DNA of 20,669 bases from a virus. Each line of letters starts with the position of its first letter. The first letter of the stretch is position 1. This document shows, piece after piece, positions 907 through 17,233 of the stretch. Both the position numbers and the translations under genes were made by a program. The stretch is from positions 1-20,669 of IMG/VR virus record IMGVR_UViG_3300046001_006151; one strand, given 5' to 3'. The notes beneath the pieces were generated by a model that worked only from the letters and a program-made list of their open reading frames with translations, was not told where the DNA came from and searched no databases.

Positions 907-1065
907 CTAATAGTTTACGCAAATCCAGAATGGTCCGAGGTTTAACGTGATCCAGTCACCGTCATAGTAATTATGGTACACGCCGAATTTAGATTTACCC
1001 CATTGTCGGCCTGCGGACCAGGCACCGTGTCTTACTAGATAGTAGATATGATTCCAAATACTCAT
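907..1065 (-). CDS. Small Trp/Tyr-rich phage protein, 52 aa
   Basis: Encodes 52 residues starting MSIWNHIYYLVRHGAW and ending GPFWICVNY. It is very rich in aromatic residues (five Trp, six Tyr) with two HG/HN-type motifs and a YYDGDW segment. The ATG overlaps the stop of the upstream gene (ATGA at 1062-1065), which indicates translational coupling. The composition is unlike random sequence, and similar YYDG...GPFW proteins occur, from memory, in T4-like marine phages. Function unknown; no membrane segment or signal is evident. Confidence 0.75.
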   Translation of the reverse strand: MSIWNHIYYLVRHGAWSAGRQWGKSKFGVYHNYYDGDWITLNLGPFWICVNY

Positions 1066-1199
1066 CGCTTGCTCTGTTCGTAGTCTACTGCGATTTCCTG
1101 TATCGAATACATTGCCTTATCTAGAATCTTTGCTACTCCGCTGAATCCTAGCTGAGATACAATAATTCCGAATATGGTACCTATGATGAAATTTCCCAT
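1062..1199 (-). CDS. Small membrane protein, 45 aa
   Basis: Forty-five residues with one hydrophobic segment at about 4-16 (FIIGTIFGIIVSQ), then GFSGVAKILDKA and a charged tail. The arrangement of a short helix followed by GFSGVA resembles a small protein I recall from many T4-like marine phages, whose function is unknown. The ATG shares one base with the TAA of the upstream gene (TAATG), and its own TGA overlaps the next ATG, so it sits in a coupled chain. Likely an inner-membrane peptide with the C-terminus in the cytoplasm or periplasm. Confidence 0.75.
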   Translation of the reverse strand: MGNFIIGTIFGIIVSQLGFSGVAKILDKAMYSIQEIAVDYEQSKR

Positions 1200-3933: not shown

Positions 3934-4101
3934 TTATACAAGTTCTTCAAGGATGCCGAGGCATTCTGCTAATACAATACAAATGCCAGCTAACCAAACA
4001 TTTCCTAGCATCAATACACCACCAGCAAATATACGAACAGCACTCTTACCTATACTGACCCAGAAGTGGCCTCGACTCGTATCCTTCGGTTGTATTTCCA
4101 T
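3934..4101 (-). CDS. Small membrane protein, 55 aa
   Basis: Encodes 55 residues starting MEIQPKDTSRGHFWVSIGKS with a hydrophobic stretch from about 21 to 47 that can span the membrane once, ending AECLGILEELV. Proteins of this shape (HFW...GKS...AE.LGI.EEL) recur, from memory, in T4-like marine phages; function unknown. The ATG shares one base with the TAA of the upstream gene. Too short for a 60-codon cutoff and easily missed. Confidence 0.75.
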   Translation of the reverse strand: MEIQPKDTSRGHFWVSIGKSAVRIFAGGVLMLGNVWLAGICIVLAECLGILEELV

Positions 4102-4406
4102 TATGGTGTCTCCATGTTAGCTAAACTAGCGCCATTATTAAATGCTTCATTGATATCGGCACTAAGCATTTGTAATATGCCGTTATCCTGTATCGAAAAT
4201 CTATCGTTGATTTCAGATATGATATGAACAAGCATAGCATGCTGAGCTAGATCAACCGCACCGCCAGGGTGTCGCATAGTCTCCCAAATTACCGAAGTAC
4301 ATTCTTTTGCTACAGACTGAGCAAACTGTTCCAGACATGATGTTGCTACCCATTTACCCGAAACATCTTTCATCAATTGATCCGATAACCTATCAATAGA
4401 ACTCAT
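4101..4406 (-). CDS. Hypothetical phage protein, 101 aa
   Basis: About 101 residues from the ATG at 4406, which overlaps the TGA of the upstream gene as ATGA; an in-frame TTG six bases earlier is less likely. The sequence is helical with motifs LEQFAQSVAKECTSVIWETM and a later INDRFSIQDNG. The arrangement of ERFA/EQFA followed by ECxxV resembles a small protein frequent in T4-like marine phages with no known role. No membrane or metal-binding motif stands out. Confidence 0.75.
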   Translation of the reverse strand: MSSIDRLSDQLMKDVSGKWVATSCLEQFAQSVAKECTSVIWETMRHPGGAVDLAQHAMLVHIISEINDRFSIQDNGILQMLSADINEAFNNGASLANMETP

Positions 4407-4576
4407 AGCCAAAGATACCCCGAATCGTCTTTTTTGTCTGGAGCAGGTTCCGGTGCGATAGGTACAGTGTTCGCTGAAGGAGGCGTCTCATTGCTGTTAG
4501 CTTTAACAATAACTACTGACTCATTAGTATGGAATGTTCGCTTTGCGACACCGACCATATCATTAGAATTTGTCAA
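4403..4576 (-). CDS. Small Pro-rich protein with TTG start, 57 aa
   Basis: The frame encodes 57 residues ending KKDDSGYLWL, with a Pro/Ala-rich linker (TPPSANTVPIAPEPAPDK). I chose the TTG at 4576 because TAGGAG lies six bases upstream; the first ATG would be at residue 7 (MVGVAKRTFHTNES) without a ribosome binding site. The gene overlaps the 3' end of the upstream membrane peptide gene by 14 bases and its TGA overlaps the next ATG. The DSGYLWL end may be a short interaction tail. Family unknown. Confidence 0.65.
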   Translation of the reverse strand: MTNSNDMVGVAKRTFHTNESVVIVKANSNETPPSANTVPIAPEPAPDKKDDSGYLWL

Positions 4577-4700
4577 TTGCAACTCCTAAAAGAAAAAGAA
4601 CACTGAACCATTCTGCGAATGTAAAATTCTGCAATATAGTTAAAGTCCTAGGAAATCTTGCATTCAAAAAAGAATTTAGTTTCCACATAATAGTACTCAT
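4563..4700 (-). CDS. Small membrane peptide, 45 aa
   Basis: Forty-five residues: a polar N-terminus (MSTIMWKLNSFLNARFPRT) and a hydrophobic C-terminal half with FAEWFSVLFLLGVAIDKF, probably one membrane helix at about 27-43. The ATG at 4700 shares a base with the TGA of the upstream gene (TGATG). Translational coupling on both sides supports it as real. Role unknown. Confidence 0.65.
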   Translation of the reverse strand: MSTIMWKLNSFLNARFPRTLTILQNFTFAEWFSVLFLLGVAIDKF

Positions 4701-5038
4701 CAATCTAATCTCGAATCGACAATTACTTTGATGCCCAGTTTAGCTCGAAGAACTCTAGCAAATGCGTAAGCACCTTCTTCTTTGATATCGATGTTCTGTA
4801 CATTGAGCTTACCTGGATTCCAAATTTGAATACCGCCACCGTATGCAGCCTTACCTTCGCCGATTGCTTTCAAATATCGAGCAACCTTGGATGTACCCGG
4901 TTTAACTGTAACCCAAGCAAATCCACACGACATACTGTCTCCGCCTAATCGGTCATACTCTTTTCGACTGGCTTCTTTGGCTGCTTCAAATGCTTGCACC
5001 ACTGCTGCTTCAATTGTAGTTGTATCAAGTGTAGTCAT
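4700..5038 (-). CDS. Conserved phage protein with SRLD end, 112 aa
   Basis: About 112 residues starting MTTLDTTTIEAAVVQAFEAA from the ATG at 5038, one base after the stop of the upstream gene; the longer frame to 5068 is within that gene. Motifs: a helical N-terminus, CGFAWVTVKPGTSKVARYLK, YGGGIQIWNP and a C-terminal VIVDSRLD. This pattern (CGFAWV, GGG.-WNP, SRLD) is one I recall from a protein common across large phages and T4-like phages, of unknown function. The compact conserved segments suggest an enzyme-like or nucleotide-binding fold but no catalytic motif is clear. Confidence 0.8.
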   Translation of the reverse strand: MTTLDTTTIEAAVVQAFEAAKEASRKEYDRLGGDSMSCGFAWVTVKPGTSKVARYLKAIGEGKAAYGGGIQIWNPGKLNVQNIDIKEEGAYAFARVLRAKLGIKVIVDSRLD

Positions 5039-5039
5039 A

Positions 5040-5282
5040 TTATTTACCATAAAAGTTATAATCTTCATCTGTACCCATACCTGCAGAGCTCATTGCAGTA
5101 TCAAAATCACCATCCATACTATCATCATACTCGTCGATGTCATCAATCATATCATTCATGTACATCATTTCTCGAACTTCATCTTCCGACAAATACTGCG
5201 CAAAGGCAGAGATAACCATATTCTTATCAAGCATACCATCGTCAATCATTTGCAGCAATTTTGCAGTATATTCTCTAGTCAT
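5040..5282 (-). CDS. Acidic hypothetical protein, 80 aa
   Basis: Eighty residues, strongly acidic in the second half (DDIDEYDDSMDGDFDTA). The N-terminal half is helical with an LSEDEVREMMYMND segment. The ATG at 5282 has GGAG seven bases upstream and this is the first gene after promoter P3, so it should be highly expressed early. The acidic character would suit a DNA mimic or a protein-binding adaptor, but that is only a thought. Similar LSEDEV proteins occur, from memory, in T4-like marine phages. Confidence 0.75.
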   Translation of the reverse strand: MTREYTAKLLQMIDDGMLDKNMVISAFAQYLSEDEVREMMYMNDMIDDIDEYDDSMDGDFDTAMSSAGMGTDEDYNFYGK

Positions 5283-5311
5283 CGTTTTCTCCTTGTCTAT
5301 ATTGTTTCATT

Positions 5312-5340
5312 ATTATAGCACATATTGGAAGAAAAGTCAA
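5312..5340 (-). promoter_or_regulatory. Sigma70-type promoter P3 (extended -10)
   Basis: TTGACT (5335-5340), 17-bp spacer, TATAAT (5312-5317), TGC before the -10. The TATAGACAA box is at 5293-5301, ten bases past the -10. The -35 region is identical to that of P2 over 22 bases (5325-5346). It drives the gene at 5282 and the chain down to about 2171. The -35 begins 14 bases after the preceding gene's stop. Confidence 0.92.
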
Positions 5341-5354
5341 GCAAAAAGATGTTA

Positions 5355-5537
5355 TTAATCTGCTATCCAATCAATGGTGATTCTGATGCTTCCGGTAGGA
5401 GTCTGATTCTCATCCTCAATCATTGCTATAAGAGCAGCATTTTGCTCCGGATCGAAGGCATTAGCAATGTCCTCGTCCATTTTTTCCATATCATCATGTT
5501 CCATTCTGTATTCTTTTTGGAAAAGCCTAATTGTCAT
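5355..5537 (-). CDS. Small acidic protein, 60 aa
   Basis: Sixty residues starting MTIRLFQKEYRMEHDDMEKM, with an acidic helical middle and a C-terminal GSIRITIDWIAD that looks like a beta strand. ATG at 5537 has GAGGTAA upstream and overlaps the end of the zinc-ribbon gene by 11 bases. It closes the P4 cluster, stopping 14 bases before the P3 -35. Family not recognised. Confidence 0.7.
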   Translation of the reverse strand: MTIRLFQKEYRMEHDDMEKMDEDIANAFDPEQNAALIAMIEDENQTPTGSIRITIDWIAD

Positions 5538-7382: not shown

Positions 7383-7688
7383 TTATTGAGTATTAAGAGT
7401 AGGAAGATATTCTTTAATCATACTACGTTCAATTGCATGTGCTTGAGTCTTACCTCGAACAACTTCAATAATTTGTGAAAAGAATTGGTCTGCACCAAAA
7501 TGACGTATTGCTTTGCACAACGACCAATTTTTGTTTTCGGTCAATGCTCGGCGAACGTGTTTCTGTACACGAACTTTTAGATCTTTTTGACGAAAACCCT
7601 GCGTAATACCTATGTAGAAGTCACCGGTCACAGTATTTGTCATACTGTAAATTATGTGCCTACGATCAGATCTCTTTTTTCTCACCAT
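7383..7688 (-). CDS. Freestanding GIY-YIG nuclease-domain protein, probably leaderless
   Basis: About 101 residues consisting of a GIY-YIG domain: HIIYSMTN at 11-18 and DFYIGITQG at 23-31 form the GIY and YIG strands, with a basic helix near 35-48 and AIERSMIKEYLPTLN near 85-99 holding the likely metal-binding Glu and the C-terminal Asn seen in the family. Such proteins cleave DNA in homing, repair or host-DNA attack; there is no DNA-binding extension here, so target choice is unclear. The ATG lies seven bases after the last base of the P4 -10, so transcription should begin at or next to it and no ribosome binding site exists. A GTG at codon 2 is the alternative. Confidence 0.85.
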   Translation of the reverse strand: MVRKKRSDRRHIIYSMTNTVTGDFYIGITQGFRQKDLKVRVQKHVRRALTENKNWSLCKAIRHFGADQFFSQIIEVVRGKTQAHAIERSMIKEYLPTLNTQ

Positions 7689-7694
7689 ACACTT

Positions 7695-7723
7695 ATTATA
7701 TGTGCAAATGGTTCAGAAGTCAA
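7695..7723 (-). promoter_or_regulatory. Sigma70-type promoter P4
   Basis: TTGACT (7718-7723), 17-bp spacer, TATAAT (7695-7700). Unlike P1-P3 there is no TGC before the -10 and no TATAGACAA box, because the coding sequence begins only six bases after the -10. The gene upstream stops 23 bases from the -35. It starts the chain from 7688 to 5355. Confidence 0.9.
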
Positions 7724-7746: not shown

Positions 7747-7941
7747 CTAACTTTTTGGCTCGCATTTGTGCAGTTTGGCCTCAGTTTCCTTCAACCAAAT
7801 ACCTTCGCAAAGCGTACATCTAAATGCTACACCGTCTGTATCAAATGGATATTTTGGCTGGCCACCTAAGTATTTTTCATATGAAGGCCTAACCCCGTTG
7901 GCACTAATTGTTCTAATCTTTTCTAGGTATGTCTTTTCCAT
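7747..7941 (-). CDS. CxxC-containing small protein, 64 aa
   Basis: Sixty-four residues, with FRCTLCEGIWLKETEAKLHK at about 40-59 followed by C60: a C-x2-C...H-x-C zinc-finger arrangement (residues 42, 45, 58, 60). The first half is polar (KTYLEKIRTISANGVRPSY). It overlaps the 3' end of the upstream gene by 29 bases, and GGGA sits about 8 bases before the ATG at 7941. It is the last gene of the P5 cluster. A DNA- or RNA-binding role is possible. Confidence 0.65.
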   Translation of the reverse strand: MEKTYLEKIRTISANGVRPSYEKYLGGQPKYPFDTDGVAFRCTLCEGIWLKETEAKLHKCEPKS

Positions 7942-8146
7942 TTATAAAATCCCATGCTCTGCATTCTGCTTCTGCATATGAAGCGGCAAGTATATTAAAT
8001 TGAGCTATACCATCTTTATTTATTTTTACATCAAATGGGACCGGTCCTCGGAATACTAATGAGTGAGCCAACGGTATGACTACTTTATAATATTTCAAAG
8101 ACTTCCATCGCTCCATTAAATTATCAAACTTTTCGTCTTCGGTCAT
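7913..8146 (-). CDS. Hypothetical protein, 77 aa
   Basis: Seventy-seven residues, starting MTEDEKFDNLMERWKSLKYY and ending WDFINGKDIPRKD. The middle (HSLVFRGPVPFDVKINKDGI) looks like beta strands, and the last third contains an ASYAEAECRAW helix. The ribosome binding site is weak. It follows the SleB-type hydrolase by 26 bases in the P5 operon. The family is not recognised; the layout resembles small proteins of the type 'beta strands plus AEAEcrA helix' seen in phages. Confidence 0.65.
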   Translation of the reverse strand: MTEDEKFDNLMERWKSLKYYKVVIPLAHSLVFRGPVPFDVKINKDGIAQFNILAASYAEAECRAWDFINGKDIPRKD

Positions 8147-8172
8147 ATTTTAATTTAAGTTCTCAATTGGCA

Positions 8173-8742
8173 TTATCCTCGATCTCCGTAAAAGGTATGC
8201 CTGCCTATTTTAGCAAGTCTTCGCTTTTTCCATACCGGGCTTACTTCCTCATTGTGAAAATACAGTGCAGTCTTTAATTTCTTATTGCCATGTTTTTCAA
8301 AAATAATCATATTGGCAGCACGAGTACTTTCATCCCATTTTGCTTTATTTATTTTCTTATCTCTATAATTTTCGCAGTACCAACTGAATTGACAAATTGT
8401 TTTTTCATTTACTGCTGTTTTCTGTTGTACAACTTCACATATAGAATGTGGGAACTTGCCGGAATTTACTCGGTTTAATGTAACCTGAGCAACAGCAATT
8501 TTACCTTCTAATGATTCACCTGCTGCTTCGAAATAAATGTTTCGTGTTAAGCATGCGTGTTGTTTTTTTAATTCTTTTGCCTTTGCATATTCTTTCTTTA
8601 TGTATTGTGCGTCAACTGTCTTTGCGTTGACGACATAAAGATTTGTATATGTACAAAGTAAAAGCCCTAGGGCGAAAGCTTTAAAGAACTTCGTTGTTAA
8701 GCTAATCGTTTTTTTGATTTTGCTCTTCGAACTTATTTCCAT
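8173..8742 (-). CDS. SleB-type cell-wall hydrolase (phage endolysin candidate)
   Basis: About 189 residues. The C-terminal domain fits the SleB/Hydrolase_2 family, which cuts peptidoglycan glycan strands: NIYFEAAGESLEGKIAVAQV near 68-87 with the expected catalytic Glu at 72, then TLNRVNSGKFP, ICEVV, CQFSWYC near 117-123, and ALYFHN near 160. The first 40 residues are basic then hydrophobic (helix about 19-38) with a VNA/K site, so it is exported by a signal peptide or held as a signal anchor. It has a good AGGAGA site upstream and is third in the P5 operon behind a secreted protein and a lipoprotein. It is the best lysis enzyme candidate here; a role in DNA entry or envelope change is possible. 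Confidence 0.88.
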   Translation of the reverse strand: MEISSKSKIKKTISLTTKFFKAFALGLLLCTYTNLYVVNAKTVDAQYIKKEYAKAKELKKQHACLTRNIYFEAAGESLEGKIAVAQVTLNRVNSGKFPHSICEVVQQKTAVNEKTICQFSWYCENYRDKKINKAKWDESTRAANMIIFEKHGNKKLKTALYFHNEEVSPVWKKRRLAKIGRHTFYGDRG

Positions 8743-8770
8743 TTACTTCTCCTGGTTGTGAATAAGTTTA

Positions 8771-9364
8771 TTACTGTTTTGCGTTGCGGCGTGCTGTCTC
8801 TACTTTCTTTTCTAATTCGTTAAATGATTTGCTTGCTCGCAACTTGGATTCCATTACAGAATTACTTTTAATCTTTTCAATCAACACCCGATTCATTTCT
8901 CCTAATGGGTATTTGATTAAAATATACGCAACATAATGCGTGTCCTCAATAATTATTTTGCAATCTTCTTGCTGCACTCCGTGTAGTTTAGCTAATAGAA
9001 CATCCTGAGATGTCGTAACCGAATTCATATTAGAGATAGTAGGATCTTGCCCTGCTTCATCCATGAACAATTTAATATTAGCATTAATCTCTCCTTCGAT
9101 TGATAATGCCAATTGAGCACGAGCAAGGGCAGTTGCTTTAATTACTGCCATTTGCATATCATGCGACTTTGCGGTTGCTTTCTCATATAGTGCATAATTA
9201 TCTACAGGTGGCTTAAGAAACCAAGCAGGCGCAGCATCTAGCGTCTTAGTCATTTCCTTTTTTGTTTCTTCTTTTTGCGCTTTGAATGCTTCGTATGTAC
9301 CCGGCTTAGGTGTTCCGCAACCAAATAACGCAATGCTACCTGCAATAATGATTAATTTTTTCAT
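8771..9364 (-). CDS. LPP20-like lipoprotein
   Basis: About 197 residues. Residues 1-16 form a lipoprotein signal (MKKLIIIAGSIALFGC) with lipidation at Cys16; Gly17 rather than Asp suggests sorting to the outer membrane. APAWFLKPPVD near 45-55 and a helical MQMAVIKATALARAQLALSI near 70-89 match the LPP20/FlgP-type fold, in which a PxWf segment is followed by an A-rich helix and later strands (HYVAYILIKYP). The C-terminus is a charged helix. In bacteria this family includes flagellar and outer-membrane lipoproteins. In a phage it may alter the host envelope, block superinfection or assist lysis. GAGAGA precedes the ATG; it lies between the secreted protein and the hydrolase. Confidence 0.8.
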   Translation of the reverse strand: MKKLIIIAGSIALFGCGTPKPGTYEAFKAQKEETKKEMTKTLDAAPAWFLKPPVDNYALYEKATAKSHDMQMAVIKATALARAQLALSIEGEINANIKLFMDEAGQDPTISNMNSVTTSQDVLLAKLHGVQQEDCKIIIEDTHYVAYILIKYPLGEMNRVLIEKIKSNSVMESKLRASKSFNELEKKVETARRNAKQ

Positions 9365-9375
9365 GAATGTATCTC

Positions 9376-10155
9376 TCAGTTTGGTGCCATTATAAAATAG
9401 GGTATGCGAACTACTCGACGTTCATTACGAGGTATTTCAAGTAGTCTTTCATTAAACTCTGTAAAAGTAAACTTCTCTCTAAAAGTTATTTCTTTTTTTG
9501 TTGCAACAGCAATTACCATCTCACCCGCTAAATTACCGCTAATCTTTGGAAACTCTGCATTAATCTTATAACTATTTTTTGTAGGTATATTAGTAACCTT
9601 TGTAATCTTTTTACTTGAATCATATCGATTCGGATATATTAGTTGTATATCTTCGGTATGAGGAGAATATACAAATAAATTCAAGTACATATCCGAGGTT
9701 GGCTTAACAATGTAAGTAATTGTCTCACCATCTCGCAAACGAGTTTGAACCATTTTTATTTCTGGATCAAATGATACATCTGCAAAACCTTTTTCTTTCT
9801 GTATCTTTACCTTTGCTGATACAGTACATACCTTTTTACCGGGCAATGTGGTTACTTCTTGATGCACTCGTTTTAATCCGGTAACCGTACCTTCAGTATA
9901 CATAATTGCTGATGATAACATTCTGCAAACATCTGCTCTGTTATCATCGCATGTCTGAAACTGAGAAACTGAAATTGATTCTCCCTTAGTGCGTCTAAGT
10001 ACATCTAATACTGCTAAGTCTTCCGCTGCTTTACATGCAACCTTTTCTGAAGTTTCTACACCAAAATAATACTCACCGCGGGAATCGTACCATTCCGCTA
10101 TTGCCAAACTAGGAAGGAAAAGACACCCTACCATTAATATTTTGGACAAATTCAT
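9376..10155 (-). CDS. Secreted DUF4384-like protein
   Basis: About 259 residues with a classical signal peptide, MNLSKILMVGCLFLPSLAIA, cleaved before EWYDSRG. The first mature domain (21-118) has four cysteines (41, 69, 77, 110) that likely form disulfides in the periplasm, and an A-rich helix (VACKAAEDLAVLDVLRR) similar to LPP20/FlgT-type domains. The second domain (about 140-232) reads DGETITYIVKPTSDMYLNLF, then DIQLIYPNRYDSSKKI and NIPT, the pattern of DUF4384 (a strand, Y-x-F, L-x-PN turn). DUF4384 proteins are found in bacterial envelopes, often beside lipoproteins; such a pair in a phage is unusual. It is the first gene after P5, behind a leader with a small CTATG...CATAG hairpin and an AAAAGG site. 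Confidence 0.75.
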   Translation of the reverse strand: MNLSKILMVGCLFLPSLAIAEWYDSRGEYYFGVETSEKVACKAAEDLAVLDVLRRTKGESISVSQFQTCDDNRADVCRMLSSAIMYTEGTVTGLKRVHQEVTTLPGKKVCTVSAKVKIQKEKGFADVSFDPEIKMVQTRLRDGETITYIVKPTSDMYLNLFVYSPHTEDIQLIYPNRYDSSKKITKVTNIPTKNSYKINAEFPKISGNLAGEMVIAVATKKEITFREKFTFTEFNERLLEIPRNERRVVRIPYFIMAPN

Positions 10156-10224
10156 TGTTTACCTTTTAAGAAATCTATGCTATTAACATAGAGGATAAGG
10201 TTACCTTTTTTAGGTCACATGGTA

Positions 10225-10253
10225 ATTATATAATCTTTTGGCGCGGAAGTCAA
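10225..10253 (-). promoter_or_regulatory. Sigma70-type promoter P5
   Basis: TTGACT (10248-10253), 17-bp spacer, TATAAT (10225-10230). It directly abuts the hairpin at 10254-10272: the -35 is the first sequence after the stem. About 65 bases of leader separate the -10 from the ATG at 10155, including a small inverted repeat (CTATG...CATAG). It starts the secreted protein, lipoprotein and hydrolase operon. Confidence 0.9.
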
Positions 10254-10272
10254 GACCCAGCGGTGCTGGGTC
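10254..10272 (-). terminator. Hairpin terminator, GC-rich stem
   Basis: A perfect 8-bp stem, GACCCAGC/GCTGGGTC, with a three-base loop, 15 bases after the stop of the structural gene at 10288. The T-tract is poor (TTGACTT follows), so it may be an imperfect rho-independent terminator or an mRNA-stabilising hairpin. Its position at the end of the structural block and against P5 suggests it insulates the two. Confidence 0.7.
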
Positions 10273-16477: not shown

Positions 16478-17233
16478 TTATCCGAAGTCTTTATTTTCTA
16501 TGTTAAATACCGAGCTTTTGTCAATTTCGATTGAATATTTTGAGTTTTTTGGCCGAATCTTATGTTTTCTTTGATGTAGAAGCATATTCGCAGCTATAAC
16601 TAATAAAATAGCTAACGGGTCAAATACAAACATCAATGCCATAATAATAAGACGAACTGCTCGATCAATTGTTTCCATATCATTTTTCTGATATACTAGC
16701 TCAGAGATATATCGAATAGGGCCAATATCAGCATTCTGTTTATTTTTGTTTTTTTGTATTTCGCCAAAATCCTTAGTTAATGTAGAAATTCTATTTTGTG
16801 AATTCTGAATTTCCGCATCTAATTTTTTATTCGACGTTTCTCTTTTAGATTGCCTATCTAAAAGATTATCCAACCGCCTACGTTCTATATCTATTAAATT
16901 TTTAGTAGTTGTTATTTGTGTTTCACTATCATATATTCCAGCAGAATCAGATGTATATGATTTTGATAGATAACCAAAAATACCCAAGGAGGTAATAATA
17001 GATAATATGATAATACTAATGACGAAATACGTCTTCATTAATATATTAATTTTGTTCCATTGTCTATATACAAACGATGCAGTAACAAGCTTTCCAACCT
17101 CAAGTATGCAACCCATAATAACTATAGGTAGTACATTTGCAGAGAATATATGAGCCAATCCTACAATTGAAAAATACCCCGCTATGCCTGAAATTGCGAA
17201 TGCCGTTAATAATAAAATTACTGCGAATATCAT
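16478..17233 (-). CDS. Four-helix membrane protein with central coiled coil
   Basis: About 251 residues. Hydrophobic segments at about 2-20, 33-56, 67-90 and 194-219 give three N-terminal helices and one C-terminal one. Between them lies a long charged region (about 105-165, with DIERRRLDNLLDRQSKRETS) predicted as coiled coil. The motifs VLPIVIMGCILEVGKLVTAS and FDPLAILLVIAANM resemble a membrane protein I know from T4-like cyanophages, always near structural genes and of unknown function. ATG at 17233 is 14 bases after the upstream gene's stop without a clear ribosome binding site. It might be virion- or membrane-anchored. Confidence 0.75.
   Translation of the reverse strand: MIFAVILLLTAFAISGIAGYFSIVGLAHIFSANVLPIVIMGCILEVGKLVTASFVYRQWNKINILMKTYFVISIIILSIITSLGIFGYLSKSYTSDSAGIYDSETQITTTKNLIDIERRRLDNLLDRQSKRETSNKKLDAEIQNSQNRISTLTKDFGEIQKNKNKQNADIGPIRYISELVYQKNDMETIDRAVRLIIMALMFVFDPLAILLVIAANMLLHQRKHKIRPKNSKYSIEIDKSSVFNIENKDFG

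Follow-up and report, generated by a model that had tools for sequence, protein, structure and literature searches.

The stretch of viral DNA analysed here (the window; 20,669 nucleotides of IMG/VR record IMGVR_UViG_3300046001_006151) carries on its minus strand, from 10155 to 8173, three consecutive genes for a DUF4384 protein, a lipoprotein of the LPP20 fold and a SleB-type murein hydrolase. The first (9376..10155) encodes an exported protein of 259 residues with a Pfam match to DUF4384 and an N-terminal domain common to Melnitz gp74-type proteins, the second (8771..9364) a lipoprotein of 197 residues with the lipobox LFGC, placed in the LPP20/SHS2-like fold by profile and fold matches, and the third (8173..8742) a Hydrolase_2 protein of 189 residues, assigned by its Pfam match, whose N-terminal hydrophobic stretch is read as an export signal. 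Two small genes on the same strand follow, for a 77-residue protein with no family match (7913..8146) and a 64-residue protein with a weak zinc-ribbon match below the cut-off (7747..7941); the gaps in gene order are 11, 28 and 26 bases, and the last two genes overlap by 29. A predicted sigma70-type early promoter (TTGACT-17-TATAAT, 11 of 12 consensus letters) lies ahead of the operon at 10225..10253 on the minus strand, and is kept in a related contig (L006) that is 93-98% identical to the window in the aligned pieces. The preliminary description of an exported trio behind one strong promoter, with first gaps of 11 and 28 bases and two small genes after it, is borne out for every gene named, export being a prediction.

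Promoter-like sites in this region show no excess over chance (13 found, 15.0 expected). Across the window a looser pattern gives 7 minus-strand and 3 plus-strand sites, and five of the seven are alike (TTGACTT, a spacer of exactly 17 bases, TATAAT; at 10253, 7723, 5340, 2156 and 239) and are all kept in L006. Just before the promoter the sequence reads as a perfect 8-bp inverted repeat with a loop of 3 (10254..10272, minus strand), which has no T run and is not listed by a terminator scan; a terminator role is unproven. The window DNA has no megablast match among known phages.

The assignments of the DUF4384 protein and the hydrolase are sound. The hydrolase matches Hydrolase_2 at E 2.7e-24 (86.1 bits against a cut-off of 27) and falls below the cut-off of the spore cortex-lytic SleB equivalog TIGR02869 (52.4 bits against 236.5). 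Its Glu72 is invariant in the 7 rows of alignment A2 and aligns with the Glu of the SleB structure 4f55 that we take to be catalytic. The DUF4384 protein matches PF14326 over residues 140-221 (E 6e-9, 36.3 bits against a cut-off of 27) and is full-length kin to a chromosomal protein (31% identity, 271 aligned columns, E 1e-46). A profile of its N-terminal domain built without the window lineage finds it at E 6.6e-5, the best of 2000 shuffles reaching 0.76, and finds the chromosomal protein of locus L248 at E 1.4e-14; the same profile has no match at E 10 to a secreted protein downstream of the lipoprotein of locus L021 that looks alike by eye. A tblastn search with the DUF4384 protein against 50,697 phage records found nothing at E 0.01, and the structure model of the protein (pLDDT 36) was unusable.

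The lipoprotein belongs to the LPP20/SHS2-like fold family, at the level of family and fold only. The LPP20-like assignment previously proposed thus stands by family profile and fold and fails on the window protein itself, which has no match to Pfam LPP20 (PF02169) up to E 1; the family likewise has no match against that record. Of 26 family members, 11 match PF02169 at E 0.1 or better (best 9.9e-7), the family profile finds the Helicobacter pylori LPP20 structure 5ok8 at E 1.2e-5, and the predicted fold superimposes on 5ok8 with Z 11.2 and 2.4 A over 105 residues (Foldseek E 6e-4). Against the PF02169 cut-off of 25.9, the chromosomal homologue of L248 passes (27.5) and that of L242 fails (21.9). 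The lipobox Cys16 is invariant in all 26 aligned members, and the lipoprotein is 38% identical to a chromosomal protein. Profile searches have thus not failed for both proteins of the pair. The dN/dS ratio is about 0.06 for the DUF4384 protein gene and about 0.08 for the lipoprotein gene; for the hydrolase gene, four base differences between the window and L006 give about 0.25, too few changes to judge.

Relatives of both proteins sit in bacterial chromosomes as regular neighbours, and the earlier view that they belong to bacterial envelopes was right. Among 199 genomes of the order of Terasakiella, the DUF4384 type was found in 16, 15 of which also have the lipoprotein (two of the 15, G001 and G002, supplied loci that served in finding the pair); in the sixteenth, G475, the gene next downstream encodes a diverged lipoprotein (E 9.8e-11). 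All 17 lipoprotein places in this order lie 43-1722 bases downstream of a DUF4384-type place on the same strand, as measured between matched stretches. In a sample of the phylum, 1 of 398 genomes (the centre genome) has the DUF4384 type; apart from G001, weaker matches to the lipoprotein (E 4e-24 to 3e-10) turn up in six genomes that have no DUF4384 type. Order and strand of the pair are as in the phage in 8 of the 9 chromosomal loci L242-L250, L249 having its DUF4384 relative on the opposite strand and 3 kb off. Among the neighbours are a TPR-trypsin protein and a lipoprotein that matches GNA1162 below the cut-off, joined in some loci by a caspase-domain protein; no SleB was seen among the loci read by eye. 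Judged by their sequences, the phage DUF4384 protein and lipoprotein are a captured piece of this bacterial cluster, and we know of no described function for the chromosomal pair. A tree of the lipoproteins, built without L021 and L128 (long branches in an earlier tree), prefers neither a grouping of the window lineage with bacteria nor one with other phages (p-AU 0.54 and 0.51).

The trio is conserved in other phages in a related form: Methylophilales phage Melnitz and its IMG/VR relatives have a parallel operon, in which a protein sharing its N-terminal domain with the DUF4384 protein is joined by a membrane protein of 45 residues, the lipoprotein and SleB. A 45-residue protein at 1062-1199 of the window resembles this small membrane protein by look, and was left uncounted because a model of the Melnitz family has no match in the window at E 0.1. 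The 164 lipoprotein reading frames compared reduce to 73 distinct proteins, each represented by one locus, and fall into 13 groups at 70% identity; loci too near a contig end were kept outside the testable counts. Since each scan was confined to the best 80 loci (of 275, of at least 596 and of 112 relatives), the lineage counts come from samples skewed towards the queries. Of 69 testable distinct loci, 33 have SleB at most 250 bases downstream of the lipoprotein (31 of 31 of the Melnitz type, 2 of 2 of the window type), and a small membrane protein lies upstream in 60 of 70. No SleB is adjacent in 10 of 13 lipoprotein lineages, and the lipoprotein is therefore useful without it. Jumbo phage locus L128 has the order SleB, holin-like gene, lipoprotein.

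Trees were used to follow the hydrolase, with groups fixed from gene neighbourhoods before the tree was built from 36 hand-chosen rows (SleB matches occur in 170 loci, with many copies among them). The window SleB falls in a clade (98/94) of phage enzymes that have a holin-like gene nearby, and a single clade for window-type and Melnitz-type SleB is rejected (p-AU 2e-8). SleB has therefore joined the pair on two or more occasions, evidence in favour of a functional link between them, and these independent joinings favour an accessory role in lysis.

No holin or spanin was seen beside the trio, as previously described; the same phage does have a predicted spanin pair 3.6 to 4.3 kb past the right end of the window, two overlapping genes with matches to Rz-like spanin families. 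A typical holin-spanin cassette holding the hydrolase elsewhere had been named as a finding that would speak against the preliminary description, and of such a cassette this spanin pair is the part that was found. With this pair in place, the lipoprotein is not needed as a spanin. Spanin families have no match to the window lipoprotein up to E 1, and its neighbouring genes do not overlap it. The o-spanin family of the window phage, phrog_2425, gave no match in the records of Melnitz, HTVC008M and Mosig, so these phages could lack that pair; a search of phage records with the o-spanin of the window phage also found no match. Melnitz has a holin-like gene close to another endolysin, GH108, and SleB may therefore not be its main endolysin. 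A curli pore has been proposed for Melnitz lysis, and Melnitz is said, in the parts of that paper covered, to lack other lysin-like genes (PMC9004378). A curli link was discarded here, as CsgF/CsgG of Melnitz lie in a separate run from the cassette; the passages covered in papers on csgG/curli and phage do not mention LPP20.

A lysis module, a superinfection exclusion device and a change to the outer membrane, the three roles first suggested for the operon, are all possible. We tentatively prefer, at somewhat less than an even chance, that an assembly at the outer membrane holds an exported endolysin in position or in check, and in this way helps lysis or sets its timing. All three operon proteins would be exported; the lipoprotein would be sorted to the outer membrane's inner face and may associate with itself there through its SHS2-like domain, and the DUF4384 protein would bind it from the periplasm. 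During infection the assembly would then place the exported SleB at the murein, or restrain it there, the wall would be opened at the right place and time, and the assembly would act as a lysis accessory alongside the predicted spanins of the phage. The many lipoprotein lineages with no SleB beside them speak against this reading, and an early promoter, as predicted here, is odd for lysis; the T4 endolysin e is likewise under an early promoter, according to passages of PMC9004378. A stronger version, in which a captured ring-type outer-membrane lipoprotein and a periplasmic partner gate or hold a Sec-exported SleB, as a new Gram-negative lysis control arisen independently in marine methylophages and the window lineage, is an unlikely one.

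The main rival, which we consider possible and on the unlikely side, is early envelope remodelling or superinfection exclusion: soon after infection, the pair would form a coat on the outer membrane and murein or make them stiffer, and SleB would open the wall locally for the installation of the assembly. The early promoter predicted in the window speaks for it, as do the lipoprotein lineages with no adjacent SleB, the spanins placed elsewhere and, in Melnitz, the other endolysin near the holin-like gene. A loose pattern used without a chance control, which found early-type promoter sites before the Melnitz cassette and no late motif TATAAATA within it, points the same way. However, two independent joinings of SleB, one from a holin-associated clade, exceed what remodelling requires, and matches to the Cor exclusion family (phrog_1119) are confined to the signal region, both in the window lipoprotein (residues 1-19 only, E 0.17; mature protein unmatched) and in its HTVC008M homologue (residues 1-32, E 0.053).

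It is rather improbable that the pair are passengers, that is, host envelope genes picked up by chance that share a transcript with an ordinary endolysin, the three not working together. Host genes are common in T4-like phages, SleB is not adjacent in most lipoprotein lineages, and the binding of the partners is something we infer; but the dN/dS of the pair is low, and a similar gene order recurs in a second lineage with a different SleB. One might also speculate, with little probability, that the chromosomal cluster, with its trypsin-, caspase- and GNA1162-like proteins, DUF4384 and LPP20, senses or kills infected cells, and that the phage pair is a decoy or substitute subunit countering it. 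The caspase-domain and TPR-trypsin proteins that stand beside the pair in some loci resemble defence-protein models in L248 (E 2.9e-6 and 1e-19), and the DUF4384 type is patchy in both genome samples, yet neither member of the pair matches a defence model at E 0.01, and the idea presupposes the cluster in the host of the window phage and gives SleB no role. That the lipoprotein is itself an outer-membrane spanin disrupting the outer membrane at lysis is very improbable: it lies beside an endolysin and commonly has a small membrane protein upstream, the phages without a phrog_2425 match could lack such a pair, and the HTVC008M homologue weakly matches an Rz-like family (phrog_812, E 0.077) in its signal region only, residues 1-25, but the LPP20 fold is unlike small o-spanins, and this reading was set low once the Rz-like pair turned up in the same phage.

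The manner in which T4-like phages of streamlined marine bacteria open the envelope looks unsettled. Our analysis points to a SleB hydrolase in Melnitz that is coupled with a lipoprotein of the outer membrane, and to a second such coupling, of independent origin, in the lineage of the window. Together, the window operon and the separately arisen marine-phage set point to what may be an undescribed way of handling the host outer envelope; in the literature covered (in part, with most subscription journals outside its scope) we found no treatment of these genes in phages. The chromosomal pair also gains a testable partner, a phage module small enough for expression and assay.

Several known systems resemble the operon in part. 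The lipoprotein is alike in fold to H. pylori LPP20, Campylobacter FlgP and Vibrio FlgT (SHS2-like), the last two having the LPP20 fold according to the parts of PMC12222027 covered, whereas its own sequence lies below the Pfam LPP20 cut-off. The flagellar link first suggested is borne by this common fold; no flagellar gene was found among the 8 window proteins and 10 chromosomal-locus proteins searched, none was noticed by eye among other neighbours, and a flagellar hijack was set aside. With the chromosomal DUF4384-(GNA1162-like)-LPP20 cluster of Pseudomonadota (Terasakiella, Paramagnetospirillum, a Thiotrichales MAG and others) the phage has two proteins in common. In Terasakiella the genes of the pair adjoin each other, 28 bases apart by reading frames (11 in the phage), whereas many chromosomal loci have a TPR lipoprotein with the sub-cut-off GNA1162 match between its members and the TPR-trypsin protein upstream, which is not so in the phage. 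The Melnitz cassette (QZI95027-QZI95030) has, like the window, the DUF4384-protein N-domain, an LPP20-like lipoprotein and SleB in a one-strand run, but the DUF4384 domain itself finds no match there, a membrane protein of 45 residues is added, and the SleB is of another clade. Finally, SleB accompanies a holin-like gene in 31 of the 80 loci of the SleB scan, including L096-L112, and the window SleB belongs to the same clade; in contrast to its weaker N-terminal hydrophobic stretch, that of the holin-type enzymes (L100, L128) is more hydrophobic, and whereas a holin-like gene adjoins SleB in the eight such loci read, the window SleB adjoins the captured pair instead.

The five genes of the minus-strand operon, their spacing and their promoter are present as the preliminary description had them: the promoter (10253-10225) is followed by genes for a DUF4384 protein (10155-9376), a lipoprotein (9364-8771) and a SleB-type hydrolase (8742-8173), and then by two small genes (8146-7913 and 7941-7747). 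The first protein is over the Pfam cut-off for DUF4384; the third exceeds that of Hydrolase_2 by a wide margin and is similar to SleB structures. The window lipoprotein alone did not match LPP20, but in its family, where the lipobox cysteine is invariant in the alignment, 11 of 26 members matched PF02169 (LPP20) at E up to 0.1, and the family profile found H. pylori LPP20 in the PDB (E 1.2e-5). A moderately confident structure model (mean pLDDT 72, pTM 0.61) is consistent with this, its best counterpart being LPP20 (Z 11.2, 2.4 A over 105 residues; next row Z 7.8). According to PMC12222027, the FlgP rings of Campylobacter are built from the LPP20 fold, which FlgT shares, and ring formation accompanies an insertion after the SHS2 helix. 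Our model has a predicted helix at that place (residues 108-124), which might by analogy serve to form rings.

We found that the pair of DUF4384 and lipoprotein genes also occurs in bacterial chromosomes. Scanning bacterial genomes with an alignment of four lipoproteins, we obtained nine loci from eight genomes, all eight of which carry the close type of the DUF4384 protein. It lies upstream of the lipoprotein on the same strand in 8 of the 9 loci, the exception being L249, where the two are 3 kb apart on opposite strands. Terasakiella brassicae (L248) has the DUF4384 gene immediately before that of the lipoprotein; there, both proteins are over their Pfam cut-offs, and the DUF4384 protein and its window counterpart align over their full lengths (31%, E 1e-46); in the chromosomal locus L242, both are below the cut-offs (DUF4384 25.7 vs 27, lipoprotein 21.9 vs 25.9), and the lipoprotein is 38% identical to the window's. 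Of 199 genomes of the Terasakiella order, 16 have the DUF4384 type and 15 of these the lipoprotein (E up to 1e-10); the 15 include G001 and G002, two of the genomes in whose loci the pair was first recognised. Each of the 17 lipoprotein places follows the DUF4384 type on the same strand at a distance of 43 to 1722 bases, counted between matched stretches, and in the sixteenth genome (G475) the gene directly downstream is that of a diverged lipoprotein. In the phylum sample (398 genomes), the DUF4384 type is restricted to the centre genome, which also has the lipoprotein, with weaker matches in six others. The counts thus make the pair regular where the close DUF4384 type occurs, yet patchy. 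Its companions in the scanned loci are a TPR-trypsin protein and a TPR lipoprotein with a sub-cut-off GNA1162 match, joined in some loci by a caspase-domain protein; this patchy cluster is seen across L242-L250 and L272-L277. We know of no described function for the cluster of TPR-trypsin, DUF4384, TPR lipoprotein and LPP20 lipoprotein.

Among phages, the lipoprotein has relatives in Pelagibacter phages HTVC008M and Mosig and in four records of the Methylophilales phage Melnitz (7 of 50,697 records, HTVC008M being counted twice), as well as in at least 275 IMG/VR stretches; the relatives fetched form 13 lineages at 70% identity. At the testable distinct loci, the lipoprotein is preceded within 30 bases by a small membrane protein (60 of 70) and within 300 bases by a Melnitz gp74-type protein (32 of 66, both window-type loci entering this count via their DUF4384 protein), and followed within 250 bases by SleB (33 of 69, made up of all 31 loci of the Melnitz type and the two of the window type). 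Built without the window lineage, the N-domain profile matched the window DUF4384 protein at 6.6e-5 (best of 2000 shuffles, 0.76), three of five chromosomal ones at 1.4e-14 to 9.9e-9, and those of L250 and L245 at 0.001 and 1.2. Because this profile matches both window and chromosomal DUF4384 proteins, this pair, cut down to the N-terminal domain, is most likely the origin of the Melnitz operon as well. SleB is not next to the lipoprotein in 10 of the 13 lineages, which is evidence against the two being obligately linked; in L071 and L072, a SleB is found ~5 kb downstream. HTVC008M-type phages (L012:6794-8495, L091:4789-6492) carry, before the LPP20-like lipoprotein, small exported-looking proteins, a 17-kDa-antigen-like protein (below cut-off) and a membrane protein of ~40 residues. 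The window also encodes, 7.5 kb from its lipoprotein (1062-1199, minus strand), a protein of 45 residues that has a membrane helix at its N-terminus and resembles the small membrane protein encoded in the Melnitz cassette, scoring below threshold against the model of that family.

Pairs of this kind were joined with SleB on more than one occasion. The window SleB belongs to a clade (98/94) that includes SleBs of loci with a conserved holin-like gene and that of L128, a 353-kb phage. Melnitz-type SleBs are a separate clade, and a single clade of both types was rejected (p-AU 2e-8), as was one of both types with L128 (6e-83). The holin-like gene, whose product of 105 residues looks three-helical by eye, is found downstream of SleB in 31 of 80 SleB-scan loci (L096-L132), directly so in all eight loci used for its model; its L100 copy matched neither PHROG nor Pfam families at E 0.1. 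In L128, SleB, the holin-like gene and an LPP20-like lipoprotein (weaker match, E 1.8e-5) stand in a row (4007-5449). Among the 80 loci, a lipoprotein match is limited to L128, L129 and L131, three loci of similar appearance, so most SleB genes do without it. Between the window and its close relative L006, SleB differs at 4 of 567 bases and the two genes before it at 51 of 591 and 39 of 777 (window 8173-10155); a recent exchange of one part is possible.

More of the window phage is seen in contig G598 (99.99% and 100% identity over 18,986 and 1,498 aligned bases). G598 and G597 have overlapping genes for a predicted i-spanin and o-spanin (L283:5114-5840, minus; L282:1497-2226, plus), which by coordinates start 3.6 kb past the window's right end on the strand of the trio. 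In scans made with the G597 copies, the outer protein matched phrog_2425 (unknown function, E 1.2e-11), Rz-like phrog_456 (3.1e-6) and, below cut-off, the Rz1-like Pfam family LysC (7e-4), and the inner one phrog_4952 (signal peptide motif, 4.2e-13) and Rz-like phrog_2536 (2.6e-4). In each contig a single Hydrolase_2 protein was found, and a search for the holin-like family in stretches of this incomplete genome returned nothing at E 1. A 251-residue membrane protein of the window with a periplasmic-looking coiled coil (16478-17233, minus) has relatives in 13 phage records (Xanthomonas XacN1, Stenotrophomonas CM1, Mosig and others) and in 9 of the 80 SleB-scan loci; its weak match to Rz-like spanins (E 7e-4) may come from the coiled coil alone.

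A functional link between lipoprotein and hydrolase is supported by two independent unions of such an envelope pair with a wall hydrolase, by the low dN/dS that we calculated for the pair (window against L006), and by a third lineage that combines SleB, the holin-like gene and the lipoprotein. Our first choice would be that the trio is an accessory to lysis. Close behind comes envelope remodelling or exclusion, which is favoured by the SleB-free lipoprotein lineages, by the other endolysin in Melnitz and by the predicted early promoter. A looser pattern fits ten promoter sites in the window, of which seven are on the minus strand. Among these seven, five sites, the operon promoter included, have TTGACTT and TATAAT 17 bases apart, and all five are kept in L006. 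Because the number of promoter-like sites in consensus scans alone is not above chance, early expression of the operon is a prediction only. A GIY-YIG endonuclease-like gene (7383-7688, minus) has its own promoter of this class at 7723.

In Melnitz, HTVC008M and Mosig, nothing matched the o-spanin family seen in the window phage. Melnitz itself is said in PMC9004378 to be without lysin-like genes except a glycosyl hydrolase. Its record holds a Hydrolase_2 protein (E 7e-23), annotated 'cell wall hydrolase', inside the LPP20-SleB cassette, and a holin-like gene of the SleB-associated family (E 3.6e-20, L095:16985-17266) one small gene after the GH108 gene. The LPP20-SleB cassette of Melnitz may be a second system.
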